Positions 32,582-39,384 of a DNA stretch of 64,000 nucleotides are shown in pieces. The translations under genes and the position numbers were made by a program. Positions within the stretch are counted from its first letter, which is position 1. The number at the start of each line of letters is the position of its first letter. The stretch is from Tenacibaculum sp. 190130A14a (GTDB lineage Bacteria > Bacteroidota > Bacteroidia > Flavobacteriales > Flavobacteriaceae), in the NCBI RefSeq assembly GCF_964048965.1, contig NZ_OZ040189.1:806001-870000 (forward strand), read 5' to 3'. The notes beneath the pieces were generated by a model. It did no database searches and was not told where the DNA came from. It worked only from the letters and a program-made list of their open reading frames with translations.

Positions 32582-32758
32582 CTATTTAATATTTGGGTTA
32601 GGTCCTAACCAAACTTTTTGAGGATAATTAGGATTCACACCTACATTTCCTTTAAAACCTTGGTTTCTTAAAAATTCAACAAATTCTTCTGTTGTTTTTG
32701 GCTCCGATACGATTACTTCATAATCAACAGAGACTTCTTTTTTGTCTAAAGTTTTCAT
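32582..32758 (-). CDS. Small unrecognised protein, 58 aa, last gene of the AidA/PixA cluster
   Basis: A 58-codon ORF, too short for most ORF callers. It has a charged beta/alpha front (EVSVDYEVIVSEPKTTEEFVEFL, split by position about residue 20) and a Gly/Pro/Asn-rich end (GVNPNYPQKVWLGPNPN). No signal peptide or membrane helix is visible. It is 30 bases after the preceding cluster gene on the same strand and ends the series before a hairpin, so I infer co-transcription. The short linear tail could be a peptide or assembly element, but I do not recognise it. Confidence 0.6.
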   Translation of the reverse strand: MKTLDKKEVSVDYEVIVSEPKTTEEFVEFLRNQGFKGNVGVNPNYPQKVWLGPNPNIK

Positions 32759-32788
32759 AAGATTAGTTTTATTTAGGTTTATAAATAG

Positions 32789-33097
32789 TTACCATTTAAC
32801 AACAGTTTCTTTGTTTTTATAAACAACTTGACCATACTCGGTAATTTCAAATGTACATTCTATTGAAGAATTGAAGTAGTTGGTAGTAAGCTCTCCACTA
32901 TATTCTTGTATCCCTGTATTTTTCCATAAAGTTTGTTGAGGATTTTCAGGGTTCATTGTTCCATTTCCTAATTCTAATCCATCAAAATTTGATGAAGTAG
33001 TAATGATATTCGTTGTGGTGTCGATACTGTATGAGATTTCAAGACCTCCCATTCTTTTGACACCTTTAATTGGTGATGTTGCTGTATTGTTTGACAT
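32789..33097 (-). CDS. Small beta-rich unrecognised protein, 102 aa
   Basis: I do not recognise this protein. It lacks a signal peptide and transmembrane segments. The sequence is rich in Thr, Asn, Ser and Gly and alternates in a way that predicts beta-strands (GLEISYSIDT, SSIECTFEITEY, GQVVYKNKETVV). The composition resembles that of the neighbouring GH64-like and DUF1842-like proteins. It lies 44 bases after the GH64-like gene on the same strand. Part of the same operon by spacing; role unknown. Confidence 0.7.
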   Translation of the reverse strand: MSNNTATSPIKGVKRMGGLEISYSIDTTTNIITTSSNFDGLELGNGTMNPENPQQTLWKNTGIQEYSGELTTNYFNSSIECTFEITEYGQVVYKNKETVVKW

Positions 33098-33141
33098 TTT
33101 GAATCTGTTTTAGTTATTATTGAATTGTTTTTTGGTAAGTA

Positions 33142-34467
33142 TTATGCTAAAGTAGCTACATCAAAAAATGATACTTCCAGTGTATTTACTTTTGCAGGAT
33201 CTAAAGAAATCTGCACCGCAGAGAAACGATCTGAATACGCAAAGTTGTATGCTTGCGATAATGTTTGTAAAGTAGCTGCGTACTCATTATAGTAGGCATC
33301 GTTACTCTGTAAATTTCCAAATAGTTCTGTGTTTGGTATTTTGCTAAACCAATCACTACTTTTCATAGCTCCAGCTTCTGTACCACTGATAGAAGTTGTA
33401 GAACCAATTGCTCCAATATTGAATCCAGCTAATAAATCACCAGTAATCCATCCGTATACATCATTTGCTGGACTTTGTTTAGCAGCTCCGTTTAAAGAGA
33501 ACATAGCATTGGCACCATAGATTCCATCAGGATTAATTAAATCACCTTTTTTATATACTATAGTTACAGTACTTCCTCCAACAGTTCCACTTAAGGTAAT
33601 ATCTAAACTATCATCAATAGAAGCTGTTAAGTTGTAATCTTGAGCACTTTGTGGACCTGATGTTGGTACGTTAGGTCCTACACCATTAAAATGTCCTGCA
33701 ATAGTTGCAATGGTACCCTTTCCTAAACCGTTAATACTAACTGCTCCTGCTTTAGGAGATGTTCCGAAATTATCGTTTAAATACGTTAAATACGACTCAA
33801 ATAAATGGTATGGTGTAATAGGTACTCCGCCAATTGGAGGGTATGAAGATGGACCAATAATTCTTGCAAATCCAGATCCTGGTTGGTTTGAATGTTGTGT
33901 GAAATCTCCAGGAACTAAAGCAGGTTTTGCATTGGCTAATCCAGACTTTGGAGTCTGTGTTAACCCATTTAGAGCGTTGTAAACTTGGCTTGAAGTAACG
34001 CCAGGTTCTAAACCATAATCTGTTTGTACAGGAATTAAACCATCTAATGAAGTTTCTAACTTCATAGGAATACTCCAATAATCGATACTTGTTAAATCAG
34101 CCACATCAGTAGCAGCTCCATTAAACGTAAGTTCCATTTTGTCGTATCTTAAAAAGAAGTTTGGATCGGTAATGTTTTGCGCAGGTTCGTAGTAGGCATT
34201 TTGTACCTTCCAAGCTTGTCCGTAACAAACATAAATTCTTCCACTAAAGTTCGTTACTTGAACTCCTTCTTTTAATTCTTCATAAGAATACCAGTTTCCA
34301 GTACCAGCTTCAGTGTTTAATGGTTTAATATCAACTTCAAGAGGTTCAAATTCTCCAGCTTTATAACTGATGTTAAACGCATCGTCTGTACTTCCAGAAA
34401 CAAAACCGATGTAAATGTTTTCTTCGGTTACTTCCCCTTTGTTAAATTTTATAGTTAAAACGCTCAT
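33142..34467 (-). CDS. GH64/thaumatin-like protein without a signal peptide
   Basis: A 441-residue protein that I match, by eye, to the GH64 beta-1,3-glucanase / thaumatin-like fold. RIYVCYGQAW (77-86), then FFLRYDKMELTFNG (104-117) and SIDYWSIPMKLE (127-138) follow the family order, and Glu112 and Asp129 sit where the two catalytic acids are in Streptomyces GH64 enzymes. FARIIGPSSYPP and a C-terminal YAATLQTLSQAYNFAYSDRF block also fit. Unlike secreted glucanases it starts MSVLTIKFNK with no signal peptide and ends without a T9SS domain, so it stays in the cytoplasm or leaves by another route. It sits between a DUF1842-like gene and small unknown genes. Glucanase activity is not established. 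Confidence 0.65.
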   Translation of the reverse strand: MSVLTIKFNKGEVTEENIYIGFVSGSTDDAFNISYKAGEFEPLEVDIKPLNTEAGTGNWYSYEELKEGVQVTNFSGRIYVCYGQAWKVQNAYYEPAQNITDPNFFLRYDKMELTFNGAATDVADLTSIDYWSIPMKLETSLDGLIPVQTDYGLEPGVTSSQVYNALNGLTQTPKSGLANAKPALVPGDFTQHSNQPGSGFARIIGPSSYPPIGGVPITPYHLFESYLTYLNDNFGTSPKAGAVSINGLGKGTIATIAGHFNGVGPNVPTSGPQSAQDYNLTASIDDSLDITLSGTVGGSTVTIVYKKGDLINPDGIYGANAMFSLNGAAKQSPANDVYGWITGDLLAGFNIGAIGSTTSISGTEAGAMKSSDWFSKIPNTELFGNLQSNDAYYNEYAATLQTLSQAYNFAYSDRFSAVQISLDPAKVNTLEVSFFDVATLA

Positions 34468-34478
34468 AGTATGTAGTA

Positions 34479-34489
34479 GTTTGGTTAGT
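34479..34489 (-). promoter_or_regulatory. Repeated leader motif before the GH64-like gene
   Basis: Read leftward, ACTAACCAAAC occurs here, 11 bases before the start codon at 34467. The identical 11-mer precedes the DUF1842-like gene (34969-34979), and a near copy (ACTAACCAAC, 35651-35660) lies in the AidA/PixA leader. It could be an mRNA leader element, such as an initiation enhancer in a genus without Shine-Dalgarno sites. Confidence 0.4.
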
Positions 34490-34505
34490 TAAGTTAGTTG
34501 AGAGA

Positions 34506-34539
34506 AATAAGCTCTTTGAAATAAAGCAAAGAGCTTATT
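34506..34539 (-). other. Intercistronic hairpin between the DUF1842-like and GH64-like genes
   Basis: Thirteen-base perfect arms (34506-34518 and 34527-34539) surround an 8-base loop. The leftward transcript has only a short U stretch after it, so partial termination or mRNA stabilisation is more likely than full termination. Confidence 0.6.
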
Positions 34540-34552
34540 GAATTAGTTGAGT

Positions 34553-34951
34553 TTATAGGTTAAAAGTATCTCCGTTTATAGGAAGGTTTTCATAGTTTTT
34601 ACCTCTAAAAGTGATTCCACCTGAACCTTTCCAATCTGAATTTAAAGCCATATGAGCTTCAAAAGGAAGTACTATTCCGCTAAATTTGTTCTGTGGAGGA
34701 AAGTTTCCTCTAATACTGATCAACCTAACAACATCATTAAGTCCAGAAGCATGAGTAACTCCTGTTACTTGACCTGAGTAAACTTCCTCATCTCCATTGC
34801 TTATAGTTAGTTTTACTGTTCCATCAACCGTATTTTCTTCTGGATGAATTAAAAGAGAGAACCTTAATAATGGTGATAAAGGATTAGCAACTTTTCCCAT
34901 AGTTCCTTTGAAATAAACTGTTTGTGCTGTTTTGTTTGCTGTTGTAGCCAT
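34553..34951 (-). CDS. DUF1842-like protein
   Basis: A 132-residue soluble protein with no signal peptide. Its beta-strand layout matches what I know of DUF1842: TVYFKGTMGKV, LLRFSLLIHPEENTVDGTVKLT near residues 28-49, and a closing FEAHMALNSDWKGSGG plus FRGKNYENLPI. The family has no assigned function; I recall it near AidA/PixA-type genes in Burkholderia and relatives. Here it is directly downstream of the AidA/PixA gene (39 bases). The ATG at 34951 is clear. Family assignment is by recognition only, not by a search. Confidence 0.6.
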   Translation of the reverse strand: MATTANKTAQTVYFKGTMGKVANPLSPLLRFSLLIHPEENTVDGTVKLTISNGDEEVYSGQVTGVTHASGLNDVVRLISIRGNFPPQNKFSGIVLPFEAHMALNSDWKGSGGITFRGKNYENLPINGDTFNL

Positions 34952-34968
34952 AATAAATTTGTTTTAAA

Positions 34969-34979
34969 GTTTGGTTAGT
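34969..34979 (-). promoter_or_regulatory. Repeated leader motif before the DUF1842-like gene
   Basis: An exact second copy of the 11-mer ACTAACCAAAC (leftward), 17 bases before the start codon at 34951; see the copy at 34479-34489. Confidence 0.4.
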
Positions 34980-34990
34980 ATTTTGTTGTT

Positions 34991-35569
34991 TTAAGCCAAT
35001 TGAGGTTTTTTAAGAGATTCAGCTTTTGCAGCTTTATAATCTTCTTCATTCGTTAATACTTTTACAAATGGATCCCAAGAATAGAACCCTAAACTAGTTC
35101 CTTCTTTATTCATGATTTGAAAAACAACATTGTATTGTGTTATTCCTGTATTTATAACATGAGAAACATAATCTCTTTGTTGTACAATTTGATACCCATA
35201 TTGATTTGGCTGAGTATAAATGTGTCTAGTTGTCATTACTGCTTCAGGAGGAGTTAAAGAAATTGGATTAGGTTGCGCTCCTGGGTTAACCCCTGCAATA
35301 ATTGCGTTAAATTGTAAACCAGAGCCAGGACAAGTAAGTTCCCATTGAATAGTGTCTCCTATTCTGGCGTCTATAGTTAATTCTGAATTTGCTCTAATTC
35401 TTTCGTCTGAGTCAATAAAACCTTGAGCTGTAATCATGTATACATAAGCATCTGAATCTCCGTAAGACCCTAAAGATGTTGCTGATTGTGGTGAGTTACC
35501 ACCTTGAAGGTTATTGCTTAAAATAGTTTCAACGTCAATAACGCTTAAAATGTTAATTGTATTTGGCAT
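34991..35569 (-). CDS. AidA/PixA inclusion-body-family protein
   Basis: A 192-residue protein of the AidA/PixA family, named after Xenorhabdus/Photorhabdus PixA (cytoplasmic methionine-rich inclusion protein) and the quorum-regulated AidA of Burkholderia. The family start INILSVIDVETIL (residues 5-17), the YMITAQGF segment, GDTIQWELTCPG near 73-84, and the closing YNVVFQIM with FYSWDPFVKV are typical. There is no signal peptide. It heads a leftward series: DUF1842-like, GH64-like and two small proteins. Its long upstream region carries direct repeats shared with the gene at 38781-39263. Whether it forms inclusions here is unknown. Confidence 0.78.
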   Translation of the reverse strand: MPNTINILSVIDVETILSNNLQGGNSPQSATSLGSYGDSDAYVYMITAQGFIDSDERIRANSELTIDARIGDTIQWELTCPGSGLQFNAIIAGVNPGAQPNPISLTPPEAVMTTRHIYTQPNQYGYQIVQQRDYVSHVINTGITQYNVVFQIMNKEGTSLGFYSWDPFVKVLTNEEDYKAAKAESLKKPQLA

Positions 35570-35579
35570 AGTTAATAGT

Positions 35580-35700
35580 TTTAAGGTTCCTACTCGTAAG
35601 GCTTTTCGGATTCCGCCTCGTTTTTTTTAGTGGGGACTGCTCCACAAAAGGTTGGTTAGTTGAAATAAGTATGCTAGCGATTATTTCTGAAGTAAAACTA
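35580..35700 (-). promoter_or_regulatory. Structured leader and weak promoter box of the AidA/PixA gene
   Basis: The 5' region has small hairpins: AGGC/GCCT arms (35599-35602 / 35615-35618) and GTGG/CCAC arms (35630-35633 / 35642-35645). A TAGTTTTA box, one base off TAnnTTTG, lies on the minus strand of 35693-35700. The leader would be about 115 bases, long for this genome. Confidence 0.35.
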
Positions 35701-35704
35701 CAGT

Positions 35705-35780
35705 AGAATAAGAGGTGAAAAGATTAAAATGGAATAAGAGCGGATTTCTTTTCCATAAAAAAAGGAATTGTTGGAATATG
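35705..35780 (-). promoter_or_regulatory. Direct-repeat element upstream of the AidA/PixA gene
   Basis: On the plus strand GAATAAGAG occurs exactly at 35706-35714 and 35732-35740, and TGGAATATG at 35772-35780. The GGAAT units at 35731 and 35773 are 42 bases (twice 21) apart. The block ATGGAATAAGAGCGGAT is nearly identical to one upstream of the gene at 38781-39263. It is a candidate site for the neighbouring LytTR regulator. Confidence 0.5.
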
Positions 35781-35794
35781 GTAGTTTAGTTATT

Positions 35795-35831
35795 AGTTGT
35801 GAGTTGTGAGTTGTGAGTTGTGAGTTGTGAG
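35795..35831. repeat. 7-bp tandem repeat (AGTTGTG)x5
   Basis: Five exact head-to-tail copies of AGTTGTG plus two bases. It is a short microsatellite-like tract upstream of the AidA/PixA promoter region and is prone to slippage. Confidence 0.9.
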
Positions 35832-35855
35832 AATTTAATATGTAGTTGTGTTATT

Positions 35856-36005
35856 CGATGTCACTTTGAGTGAAATTGTAAGAAGCGAAGCGAATTAAGT
35901 AAGAATGGTTCTCGATACAATTTTTCTTCCATTGCATTCAGAAAAACCACTCGAACTGACAGATCAGGTTATTACGAGCGGAACAAAGTGGAGTGAAGTA
36001 ATCTT
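35856..36005. repeat. Dispersed flavobacterial repeat, copy 1
   Basis: This is the first of two related copies in one gap. It runs from CGATGTCACTTTGAGTG through AAGCGAAGCGAATTA and CATTGCATTCAGAAAAACCA to GAACAAAGTGGAGTGAAGTA. Short inverted pieces (CACTTNGAGTG, ACTCGAAC) make it REP-like. It is non-coding. The stretch 35570-36218 holds no gene that I can see. Confidence 0.75.
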
Positions 36006-36025
36006 ATCAAAGATAAGTTAGTTTT

Positions 36026-36200
36026 CGGTGTCACTTCGAGTGAAATTATAAGAAGCGAGGCGAATTATAATTTAGTATCGAGAAGAGAAGAAGCAAAAAT
36101 AGTTCTCGGTACAATTTTTCCTCCATTGCATTCAGAAAAACTACTCGAACTGACAGTTGAGGTCATTACGAACTGAACAAAGTGGAGTGAAGTAATCTTT
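36026..36200. repeat. Dispersed flavobacterial repeat, copy 2
   Basis: Starts CGGTGTCACTTCGAGTGAAAT and follows copy 1 along its length, apart from about 25 extra bases (including GTATCGAGAAG) in the middle. It ends GAGTGAAGTAATCTT. It lies directly after the response-regulator stop codon (36219, leftward), so it may also contribute to its 3' end. Confidence 0.75.
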
Positions 36201-36218
36201 TTATTTGGGGCTACGAAT

Positions 36219-36965
36219 TTACTTTAGTGTACGGAATCGTTTAATGATATCCTTATAACGTTCGCTAAGCGTTACCGTATGGTTTTCTTGTAGTACAATT
36301 AAATTGTCGGTAGGAACAATCTCGGTAATCTTTTCAATGTTTACAATGAAGTTTCTGTGAGTTCTAGAGAATTTGGTATTGTCTAATAATTGTAAAATCT
36401 TTTTCAAAGAAATCAAAATAACAAACTTCTCACTAGAGGTAATAATATTGCAATACTTTTCTTCTACCTCAATATAAATAATGTCAGAAAGCAGTACTTT
36501 TTTTAAGGATTTCCCTTTTTTAATAAACAAGTAATCATTGCTAATAACAGTATCCTCTTCTTCCGTAATAAATACATCCTCTTGCTCGTAAAACTTCTCC
36601 ACAGCCATTTCTATGGCATATAAAACCTCTAATTCATTAAAAGGCTTCATTAAAAAACTAAAAGGTTGGGTAAGTTTGGCGCGTTCAAATATTTTACGGT
36701 CGGTACTACTGGTTAAAAACACAAATGGTTTCGAAGCTTCTGGTACCGTATTAATGGTTTCTGCAAAAGTAATTCCATCAGGTACTCCATCTAGGAAGAT
36801 ATCAATAATTACAATATCTACTTTTACCTTGTAAAATAACCCCAAAGCATCTTTAAAATTACGGGCAATCCCAGATACCGTATAGTTATTGTCTGCTAGT
36901 ACTTTAACTAATCGATCGCTTTCTTGAGGGGTATCCTCAATTATTAAAATATTTACATTATCCAT
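36219..36965 (-). CDS. LytTR-family response regulator
   Basis: A two-component response regulator of 248 residues. The receiver domain (about 5-125) has the acidic pair ED at 10-11, the phosphoacceptor Asp55 (IIDIFLDG), Thr in LTSSTDR and Lys in FLMKPFNE. The C-terminal LytTR DNA-binding domain (about 145-245) shows KKVLLSDIIYIEVEEKYC and FSRTHRNFIVNIEKI. The ATG at 36965 overlaps the histidine-kinase stop by eight bases, so kinase and regulator are made as a pair. LytTR proteins bind imperfect direct repeats about 21 bp apart. Such a pattern lies upstream of the nearby gene at 38781-39263 and, less regularly, upstream of the AidA/PixA gene. Confidence 0.93.
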   Translation of the reverse strand: MDNVNILIIEDTPQESDRLVKVLADNNYTVSGIARNFKDALGLFYKVKVDIVIIDIFLDGVPDGITFAETINTVPEASKPFVFLTSSTDRKIFERAKLTQPFSFLMKPFNELEVLYAIEMAVEKFYEQEDVFITEEEDTVISNDYLFIKKGKSLKKVLLSDIIYIEVEEKYCNIITSSEKFVILISLKKILQLLDNTKFSRTHRNFIVNIEKITEIVPTDNLIVLQENHTVTLSERYKDIIKRFRTLK

Positions 36966-38709
36966 TAAGAGGTGTTTTAGGTAAAGATACAATCATTTTA
37001 GTACCTTTTCCTAATTCACTTTCAATATCAAATTTTCCGTGATTCTTTTTTATCATCGATTTACATAATTGCAACCCTAAACCGGTTCCAATCACATCTT
37101 CATGCTCTTTTTTATTTAAAAGAACAGAGTCTTCTAATAATTTTAAACGGGTTTCTTCGCTCATTCCTAATCCGGTATCTTCAATAACCAAATCGCAATA
37201 ATCTTCAGAAGAATTTCTAGAATATATTTTAATACTTCCGTTGGGTTTAGAGAATTTAATGGCGTTGTCTAACAAATTTCTCAATACAATTTTAAGAGAT
37301 TCTTGATCGGCGTATATGACTTCTTTTTTAGAAACGGTATTTTCAAAAGACAATTCTTTTTCTAGTAGTAAAGGTTGGTAATTGTATGAAACGTGTTCTG
37401 CTATAATAAACAAACGATGTTTGTCTATATAAAAATACTGTTGTTCGGTTTGTAGTAAAGCCCAATTTAGAAGATTGTCTAATAACCCATAGGCACCATT
37501 TACAATACTACTGTTCTTTTGTAATAAGTTCTCTAGGGCAGTTAGGTTTTTAGATTCTAAATTATCAATAAGTACTTTGTTACTCGATTTTAAAGCATTT
37601 ACGGAAGAACGTAAATCATGACTTACAATAGAAAAAAGTTTGTCTTTGGTTGTGTTGAGTTCATCTAAAGTCTCTTTTTGAGAAGCAATAATTTTATTTG
37701 ATTTAACCTTTTCTCTATAAAAATAAACAGCAATGCCTAATAGGATTAATAAACCGATAGCAGAATATAAGAAGATCTTACGTTGGGTTTCTTTCAATTC
37801 ATTTTGTACCTGTAAAATATCAACCTCATTTTGTTTTTGCTGTACAGCAAATTCTTTTTCTTTTTGACCCAATTCATAAATTCTTGCTTTATTATATATT
37901 GAGTCTACCCAAATTTCCATTTCTTTTCTATATTTTAAAGCATCTTGAAAATTTTTGCGATTTTCTTCAAAAACAGCCATATTTTTAGCAGTTTTTCTTT
38001 TAATATCAAATAAGTCTTTTTTTTGATTAAATTGAATGTTGTTCAATTTCTTTGATAATTTATAAGCTTTCTTGAAATAATTATAAGCTTTGATATCTTT
38101 TGATTTTGAATAATATAAATTGGCAATATTATTAGAATTATCAATGAGTTTTAATGTGTCTTTTATGTTATTATCAAGTTTTTTAAAGTAAAAATCAGCT
38201 TTGTTATATTCATCTAATAAAAAATGACACAGAGCAAGATTGTTATAAATAGAGTTTTTATCAAAGTAAAGTACTTTTTCTTCTGGTAATTTGGAAAGGG
38301 GAATCAAGTATTCTATAGCTTTGGTATAATCAGATATTGACATATATATATAAGCTAAATAAAATTCTTTAATATTGTAAAACTTAAAATCTTTTGAGAC
38401 CAAAAGCAAATGTTTTTCTGCTTCATTAAAAATTCCTTTGTTAGTTAAACTTATTCCTTTAAAATAGTGATATAATTCAACGGATTTTTTGTTTTTAGAA
38501 GATTTTATAACTTGATTTTCAGTATATATTAATGTAGAATCCCACTGTTTTTTTGAGAAAAATGTTGCAGCTTTTCTTAGATTTGGAGAGCTTTTAAATT
38601 GGTTTGAATATTCAAGTACTTTTGTATAGAGAAGACTATCTTTTTTTTGGGAGTAAACGAAGCAAAAAGTAGATATATAAAAAAAAAATAAAAGTAATTT
38701 TTGACGCAT
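36958..38709 (-). CDS. TPR-containing sensor histidine kinase
   Basis: A membrane histidine kinase of 583 residues. It has an N-terminal signal or anchor (1-20), a periplasmic tetratricopeptide-like helical region (about 45-270, repeats such as AEKHLLLVSKDF and KAYNYFKKAYKLSKK), a coiled stretch, one transmembrane helix (about 312-331), and the transmitter. The phosphorylated His364 lies in FSIVSHDLRSS. The ATPase N-box is NLLDNAIKFSKPNG (about 478-491), with VIEDTGLGMS and the G-rich GTGLGLQLCK after it. It is paired with the LytTR regulator by an eight-base overlap. The TPR sensor domain suggests protein or peptide ligands, which are unknown. Confidence 0.93.
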   Translation of the reverse strand: MRQKLLLFFFYISTFCFVYSQKKDSLLYTKVLEYSNQFKSSPNLRKAATFFSKKQWDSTLIYTENQVIKSSKNKKSVELYHYFKGISLTNKGIFNEAEKHLLLVSKDFKFYNIKEFYLAYIYMSISDYTKAIEYLIPLSKLPEEKVLYFDKNSIYNNLALCHFLLDEYNKADFYFKKLDNNIKDTLKLIDNSNNIANLYYSKSKDIKAYNYFKKAYKLSKKLNNIQFNQKKDLFDIKRKTAKNMAVFEENRKNFQDALKYRKEMEIWVDSIYNKARIYELGQKEKEFAVQQKQNEVDILQVQNELKETQRKIFLYSAIGLLILLGIAVYFYREKVKSNKIIASQKETLDELNTTKDKLFSIVSHDLRSSVNALKSSNKVLIDNLESKNLTALENLLQKNSSIVNGAYGLLDNLLNWALLQTEQQYFYIDKHRLFIIAEHVSYNYQPLLLEKELSFENTVSKKEVIYADQESLKIVLRNLLDNAIKFSKPNGSIKIYSRNSSEDYCDLVIEDTGLGMSEETRLKLLEDSVLLNKKEHEDVIGTGLGLQLCKSMIKKNHGKFDIESELGKGTKMIVSLPKTPLNG

Positions 38710-38741
38710 ATCTGGTTTAATAAATTACTCACAAATTAAAA

Positions 38742-38777
38742 AAAAAAACGTTCTGATTTCAATCAGAACGTTTTTTT
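38742..38777. terminator. Terminator between the 160-aa gene and the kinase
   Basis: Seventeen-base perfect arms (38742-38758 and 38761-38777, AAAAAAACGTTCTGATT and its complement) with long A and T tracts. It ends the leftward transcript of the gene at 38781-39263 and isolates the kinase gene. Confidence 0.9.
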
Positions 38778-38780
38778 GTT

Positions 38781-39263
38781 TTATTTATTTTTTATTTCTT
38801 CTTCAGGCGGTTTACTAAAAGATACTTCAGTACCTTTTGAGGTTTCGGTACCATCTCCGTTAACCATTATGTGGATTGAAGTGTTAATAGAGTCATATAG
38901 ATGAACAGATGGATGTTTAGTACCTGTCAATATTCTTCCATCACCATTTTGAACACTTATGGTCCATTTATATAGATTTGAAGGTATTTCGGTATGTTCA
39001 TAGTTAAATTCTACAATAAAAGCAGATTCCGAATCGTCATAATATAAACTAGGTGTTCCAGTATATCCTGAGTCTATACCAACTACAATAGTTAAGTCAT
39101 AAGGCATTCTATTGGGGTCATAACCAATAGGGTTCATGTAAGCACTTAATGGTTTAGCAACAAGTATTTGATTTCCTTTGGCATCAGTGCCAAAATGAAA
39201 ATCACTGCTAGGAGAAGTAGTATTTTCTTTAGTTGCCGTACTTGGTATTAATGTTTTTCCCAT
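38781..39263 (-). CDS. Unrecognised beta-rich protein, 160 aa
   Basis: A 160-residue protein with no signal peptide or membrane helix that I do not recognise. It opens with a Ser/Thr-rich stretch (KTLIPSTATKENTTSPSS), then beta-rich segments (YDLTIVVGIDSGY, SAFIVEFNYEHTEI, LYKWTISVQNGDG, TSIHIMVNGDG) and a charged tail. The composition and the shared upstream repeat link it to the AidA/PixA group on the far side of the kinase-regulator pair. It is transcribed alone, between its own upstream region and a strong terminator. Confidence 0.7.
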   Translation of the reverse strand: MGKTLIPSTATKENTTSPSSDFHFGTDAKGNQILVAKPLSAYMNPIGYDPNRMPYDLTIVVGIDSGYTGTPSLYYDDSESAFIVEFNYEHTEIPSNLYKWTISVQNGDGRILTGTKHPSVHLYDSINTSIHIMVNGDGTETSKGTEVSFSKPPEEEIKNK

Positions 39264-39332
39264 AATAATATGTTTTTTGAATGATTAGACAACCGAAAAG
39301 TAGTAAATAAAAAATGGCTAGGTATTAATTTA

Positions 39333-39384
39333 TGAATAAGAGTGAAAATAAATGGAACAAGAGCAGATATTTGTGGAATATGAT
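39333..39384 (-). promoter_or_regulatory. 21-bp-period direct repeats upstream of the 160-aa gene
   Basis: On the plus strand TGAATAAGAG (39333), GGAACAAGAG (39354) and GGAATATGAT (39375) start exactly 21 bases apart. The block ATGGAACAAGAGCAGAT is nearly the same as one upstream of the AidA/PixA gene. Known LytTR sites are 9-bp direct repeats with 12-13 bp spacers, which this fits. Confidence 0.5.

Follow-up and report, generated by a model that had tools for sequence, protein, structure and literature searches.

A LytTR regulatory module conserved in Flavobacteriaceae, its operator-like sites and its variable cytosolic cargo

Results

Organization of the locus

The locus described here (positions 32582-39263) lies within a stretch of 64,000 nucleotides of the genome of Tenacibaculum sp. 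190130A14a (contig NZ_OZ040189.1, positions 806,001 to 870,000), referred to below as the window. It contains eight ORFs, all found where the original prediction had placed them, which are accompanied by an RNA leader, two candidate operators and a terminator-like hairpin:

39332..39382, minus strand: candidate LytTR operator of p160 (three 9-bp repeats, 12-bp spacers)
38781..39263, minus strand: p160 (160 aa), divergent member of the SRGT-tail family, preceding the kinase; tail TETSKGTEVS
38742..38777, minus strand: terminator-like hairpin separating the p160 and kinase genes (16 pairs and a following T run)
36958..38709, minus strand: TPR sensor histidine kinase (HATPase_c and TPR_2; signal-like hydrophobic N-terminus)
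36219..36965, minus strand: LytTR response regulator (LytTR E 1.2e-18; Response_reg E 2e-13)
35730..35780, minus strand: candidate LytTR operator of the PixA operon (half-sites 42 bp apart, middle repeat degenerate)
35583..35650, minus strand: DUF805 RNA, leader of PixA (RF03081, 62.1 bits against a cut-off of 51.1)
34991..35569, minus strand: PixA/AidA-family protein, 192 aa (PF12306, E 7e-21)
34553..34951, minus strand: DUF1842 protein, 132 aa (PF08896, E 9e-10)
33142..34467, minus strand: GH64-like protein, 441 aa (PF16483, E 8.9e-10; PDB 3gd0, E 9.7e-5)
32789..33097, minus strand: 102-aa protein (7 database relatives, the named ones from Tenacibaculum)
32582..32758, minus strand: 58-aa ORF, a doubtful member (ORF only)

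The five leftward genes (the cargo) lie on one strand with gaps of 30-85 nt between them, and are therefore likely to form one operon; a hairpin without a T run is located between the DUF1842 and GH64-like genes. The regulator probably starts at 36965, which would give an overlap of 8 nt with the end of the kinase gene. A terminator-like hairpin between the small-protein gene and the kinase gene was detected by a permissive scan in 17 of 41 loci compared, and is therefore not a general feature. A scan for sigma-70 promoters did no better than chance (32 hits, 31.7 expected). In the interval separating the regulator from the PixA promoter (window positions 35806-36215), a short tandem repeat (unit gttgtga) was seen by eye, as was a longer repeat in two diverged copies. 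The genome as a whole carries one PixA gene, two DUF1842 genes, two DUF805 RNAs and three related regulators.

Protein families and signal peptides

The names PixA/AidA, DUF1842 and GH64, assigned in the original prediction from the sequence alone, were borne out by HMM searches, in which all three proteins scored above the Pfam cut-offs. The PixA protein covers the full PF12306 model (75.6 bits, cut-off 21), the DUF1842 protein matches PF08896 with 39.2 bits (cut-off 23), and the GH64-like protein matches Glyco_hydro_64 with 38.8 bits (cut-off 27), the latter match being partial (residues 68-168 of 441). The regulator, with a receiver and a LytTR domain and a paired kinase, is above the cut-off for both LytTR and Response_reg, and the kinase for HATPase_c and TPR_2, with HisKA appearing only below the cut-off. 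No Pfam or NCBIfam family matched the 58-, 102- and 160-aa proteins, and Pfam gave no DUF1843 match in the DUF1842 protein of the window.

Signal peptides were assessed by a crude count of N-terminal hydrophobicity rather than by a dedicated predictor, and by this count the kinase alone among the proteins of the locus has a signal-like N-terminal stretch. In the cargo no signal peptide was seen, in agreement with the original prediction; the TPR region of the kinase would be periplasmic.

The GH64-like protein is 87% identical to its counterpart in T. aiptasiae and has 277 database relatives. It can be aligned locally with a GH64 laminaripentaose-producing beta-1,3-glucanase (PDB 3gd0), Glu112 and Asp129 falling opposite a Glu and an Asp of that enzyme which we take to be its catalytic residues; unlike in the glucanase, no signal peptide was seen in the window protein, and the alignment covers about a quarter of its length. 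Among the best 120 of the 277 relatives, E112 and D129 are kept in 119 and a strongly hydrophobic N-terminal stretch was noted in four (crude check). The presumed catalytic pair, a Glu and an Asp, is retained in the GH64-like protein.

As for the remaining cargo, relatives of the 102-aa protein (whose predicted structure, at pLDDT 53, was set aside) that are 111 aa long follow DUF1842 in two loci (L059 and L062), and no relative of the 58-aa ORF was found in the loci compared. Neither the GH64-like protein nor the DUF1842 protein of locus L057 had a match in a plasmid collection. A 140-aa cargo protein of L057, guessed from its sequence to be lectin-like, found no support in Pfam.

The SRGT protein, kinase and regulator form a conserved unit

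The comparison of loci supports the gene for the 160-aa protein (the SRGT gene), the TPR kinase gene and the LytTR regulator gene as a conserved unit. Among the loci fetched by searches for the regulator, the cargo, the RNA or the small protein, 41 contain a gene of the 160-aa family, and in all 41 it directly precedes the kinase gene, which is followed by the regulator gene (the copy in L136 is a fragment). The tail P-x-x-x-R-G-T is found in 39 of the 41 small proteins, with -V instead of -T once; that of the window p160 is degenerate (SKGT). A further draw, made with a profile of 20 small-protein rows including p160, revealed the family in 16 of 199 sampled Flavobacteriaceae genomes. Fourteen of these yielded 16 regions (the other two genomes were already in hand), and 15 of the regions contain an intact trio, the exception (L180) being a broken contig end. 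In its own genome p160 matches the profile at 4.7e-22, a value to be read in the light of p160 itself being one of the rows.

The family has 121 database relatives, and among the 120 listed the motif S-R/K-G-T occurs in 119, at 4-15 residues from the C-terminus; the sole listed relative without it is 112 aa long and lacks that end. No Pfam or NCBIfam model matched the members tested (from the window, L024, L041, L057 and L058). Structure prediction gave a beta-rich fold (pLDDT 80), for which no confident match was obtained in the PDB. The regulator was matched at E 1e-30 in 27 of 395 genomes of the phylum, and close orthologues (E below 1e-50) in 15 genomes from two genera.

These data alter the original prediction in two respects. 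The 160-aa product had been listed as an unknown, its fixed partnership with the kinase (41/41 loci) having been overlooked. The remark that such a system is not known from flavobacteria is not borne out, since the 160-aa family is present in 16/199 genomes and is followed there by kinase and regulator.

Two further SRGT-kinase-regulator modules were noticed in the genome of the window strain (L041, C1:1611001-1631000; L042, C1:2466001-2486000). One of them is followed by genes for a 378-aa protein led by a DUF805 RNA and for a linear amide hydrolase-like protein (by eye), and the other adjoins the second DUF1842 gene of this genome.

Linkage of the trio to the cargo

The same kinase and regulator adjoin PixA, GH64 or DUF1842 in Flavobacterium jejuense (L024) and Tenacibaculum agarivorans (L025), and a trio likewise lies beside one of these genes in L057, L059, L062, L124 and L174. 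The occurrence of the same regulator next to PixA, DUF1842 or GH64 in other species indicates that the arrangement at the window locus goes beyond chance. In the 395 genomes searched, a close regulator was present in 10/10 of those bearing DUF1842 (P 0.0004 within two genera). Eight of 14 PixA genomes have no close regulator, and the test of PixA with regulator within the two main genera (at least 27 genomes among the matches listed) gave P 0.07.

Many trios lack a recognised cargo in their vicinity, and GH64 is not beside most of them. Of 15 fetched PixA loci, seven have the RNA leader, and the kinase is adjacent only in the window and L054. PixA and DUF1842 genes therefore also occur away from the module, and the cargo is not always linked to it. 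The gene set outlined in the original prediction thus recurs in part: linkage between trio and cargo is repeated in other genomes, but scattered PixA and DUF1842 genes, named there as the finding that would speak against it, were also encountered.

Two PixA genes look broken: one in genome G312 (C6:134963-135412) has a stop inside the match, and the other (L056:9337-9917) is split between two overlapping frames.

A DUF805 RNA leader

Searches with a covariance model revealed that a DUF805 RNA (RF03081, above its gathering score of 51.1) leads the PixA operon, a known Rfam RNA which the original prediction had missed. In relatives the RNA was identified through Rfam or through a fuzzy match with the core sequence. 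It stands before PixA-type genes in L024 (two), L025, L043-L045, L047, L048, L056 and L174, DUF1842 genes in L046, L048, L057, L060, L063 and L064, and a gene of the aegerolysin family in L024 (PF06355, E 3.5e-5). The core ends 13-32 nt ahead of the start codon.

The RNA was detected in 69 of the 395 genomes (55 above the cut-off) and coincides with PixA in 11/14 and with DUF1842 in 9/10 genomes; within the two main genera these associations are not clearly above chance (P 0.06 and 0.10, respectively), and that of the regulator with the RNA gave P 0.21. A further 29 loci (L065-L093), 27 of which have a recognisable core, carry the RNA mostly before other genes (four DUF805-like by eye), and it is therefore a shared leader and not a marker of this cargo. 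Our literature search found no paper on the DUF805 RNA motif. DUF805-like RNAs with an extra hairpin-like insert before the core, which perhaps represent a variant class, were seen by eye at L165:4494-4525, L166:6757-6788, L046:1194-1227, L047:13133-13166 and L064:14591-14623.

Candidate LytTR operators

Upstream of p160 there are three LytTR-type repeats, whose spacing agrees with the LytTR consensus given in PMC2766830, and a comparable site with a degenerate middle repeat precedes the PixA operon. These are the best and second-best triplets with a 21-bp period in the window. The p160 operator pattern gave two matches against 0.37 expected, the consensus being partly circular since both sites had been seen before it was written. 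Genome-wide this pattern alone performs weakly, with 28 matches against 17 for the control, although the top match is the p160 site; another pattern, modelled on the PixA site, hits no other place in the window genome when up to 3 mismatches are allowed.

As a fairer test, a matrix built from the p160 and PixA sites only was run over 33 further loci. In eight of these (L025, L057, L059, L062, L063, L124, L166 and L174) the top-scoring site is located 40-330 nt upstream of an SRGT or cargo gene, against 0.59 expected. The nominal P of 6e-8 is too small, because the 330-nt limit and the inclusion of six RNA-led genes in the cargo list (among them that of L166) were set after the sites had been seen, and because the species are related. 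In the other 25 loci, including the diverged modules L041, L042, L054, L058, L061, L125 and L137, the best match lies elsewhere. For close orthologues, the matching repeats and the recurrence of the same neighbours in other species support the view that the module controls the cargo, in line with the original proposal that the cargo is controlled by the adjacent LytTR system.

Leader peptides carrying the SRGT motif

Near two trios there are short ORFs in which a double-glycine leader is followed by the SRGT motif as the mature part. In T. agarivorans (L025) a single such ORF lies beside a transporter with a C39 peptidase. In genome G174 repeated ORFs of this kind lie directly upstream of the trio, at a contig end (L132:12987-13798), and another contig (L211:3-3768) ends in the same repeat, followed by an HlyD-like gene (by eye) and a C39 transporter. 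One mature peptide is identical at 12 of 14 positions to the tail of its own trio's protein.

When 68 genomes (28 carrying the module and 40 lacking it) were searched with a profile, full peptides turned up in G174 only, and no SRGT peptide gene with a double-glycine leader was found in the window genome. Its C39 genes are far from the window locus (C1:3138-3165 kb and 3697-3704 kb), with no linked exporter found, and such genes are only somewhat commoner with the module (22/28 genomes) than without it (23/40). The bare motif G-G...R-G-T is no more frequent in short ORFs than expected by chance (10, compared with 4-12 for scrambled motifs); the case for a peptide depends on the longer motif and on where it lies.

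Discussion

The finding is broader than originally perceived: it comprises a conserved module, operator-like sites and a cytosolic cargo that varies among Flavobacteriaceae. In flavobacteria the cargo may correspond to the AidA/PixA and DUF1842 proteins known from Burkholderia and Chromobacterium; proteobacterial relatives of both families are reported to be under quorum-sensing or stationary-phase control (PMC9060813, PMC12114271, PMC12322963, PMC10197875). The AidA and BCAS0292 (Bnr1) genes of Burkholderia cenocepacia, also encoding PixA-family proteins, are described as a co-transcribed operon dependent on cell density and stationary phase, with AidA being required for virulence in C. elegans (PMC9060813). 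That operon is governed by CepR quorum sensing, whereas in the window the PixA gene has DUF1842 and GH64-like partners and is accompanied by a DUF805 RNA and a LytTR system. The DUF1842/DUF1843 genes of Chromobacterium subtsugae and Burkholderia thailandensis likewise encode DUF1842 proteins, for which induction by quorum sensing or during stationary phase has been reported (PMC12114271, PMC12322963), but the window protein has a different regulator and shows no DUF1843 match. A functional parallel, with no homology to the window proteins claimed, is offered by fungal cytoplasmic lectins, which are described as acting on predators after ingestion (PMC3355094).

On balance, we slightly favour the view that a self-regulating LytTR module switches on a small cytosolic cargo operon, which acts upon lysis or ingestion. 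The kinase would read an outside signal, perhaps one related to the SRGT motif, with its TPR region, and the regulator would then activate its own module and the cargo (PixA, DUF1842, the GH64-like and 102-aa proteins, and perhaps the 58-aa one). The DUF805 RNA might provide a second level of control, perhaps on translation, since it ends near the start codon. The cargo would stay in the cytoplasm and act once the cell has been lysed or eaten, a role that we infer from the control of the proteobacterial relatives together with the part played by AidA in virulence.

An extension of this view, to which we assign a rather low probability, is peptide quorum sensing or a kin-lysis alarm, in which the SRGT tail itself is the ligand sensed by the kinase and turns on the cargo; in some species it would be exported as a leader peptide, and in most it would be carried by a cytosolic protein freed by lysis. 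The C-terminal position of the motif in almost all listed relatives, the leader ORFs beside the trios of L025 and L132, the C39 transporters and the near-identity of one peptide to a tail all fit this reading. The module also resembles LytTR peptide systems such as streptococcal SilA-SilB (PMC2766830) in having direct-repeat operators for its LytTR regulator and, in two relatives, double-glycine peptides and a C39 exporter adjoining the trio. However, the window kinase has TPRs, neither the window nor most genomes contain such a peptide gene, and no signal peptide was seen in the tail-bearing proteins. Given the rarity of the peptides and the weak association with C39 genes, we do not classify the window locus as peptide quorum sensing. 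An equally improbable proposal is that the cargo forms stationary-phase inclusions or a protein reserve with no outward role; PixA, an inclusion-body protein in Xenorhabdus, is reported to increase as stationary phase approaches (PMC9060813), and DUF1842 proteins are reported to rise in that phase (PMC12322963). Storage would, however, leave unexplained both the GH64-like protein with its conserved presumed catalytic residues and the aegerolysin-family gene placed under a DUF805 RNA in L024.

We consider two other interpretations very unlikely. The locus might be a response operon in which the kinase senses beta-1,3-glucan and the GH64-like enzyme degrades it, as the family match and the aligned Glu and Asp would suggest, but an enzyme in which no signal peptide was seen, and whose gene is missing beside most trios, is poorly suited to such a role. 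Nor is there much to recommend the idea that regulator and cargo are unrelated neighbours brought together by chance: it would account for the varying cargo and for the PixA and DUF1842 genes located elsewhere, but it is at odds with the repeated linkage and the common operator-like sites in other species.

The signalling version can be phrased for the family as a whole, though we regard it as speculative and more probably wrong than right by a wide measure. Flavobacteriaceae would possess a peptide-type LytTR signalling system whose pheromone, P-x-T-S-R-G-T-x-T, is mostly the lysis-freed C-terminus of a cytosolic beta protein and sometimes a leader-exported peptide, and which induces an arsenal against predators or competitors; this arsenal would be cytosolic and often RNA-led (PixA, DUF1842, GH64-like, aegerolysin and other proteins).

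To conclude, the locus brings several poorly understood elements together in a unit that can be tested as a whole: the families PixA and DUF1842, an RNA known from Rfam, and a partner of the kinase whose C-terminal tail is conserved. The module would allow the roles of AidA/PixA-type proteins to be tested outside Burkholderia and Xenorhabdus and, should the tail prove to be the signal, would constitute a route of peptide signalling in Bacteroidota.
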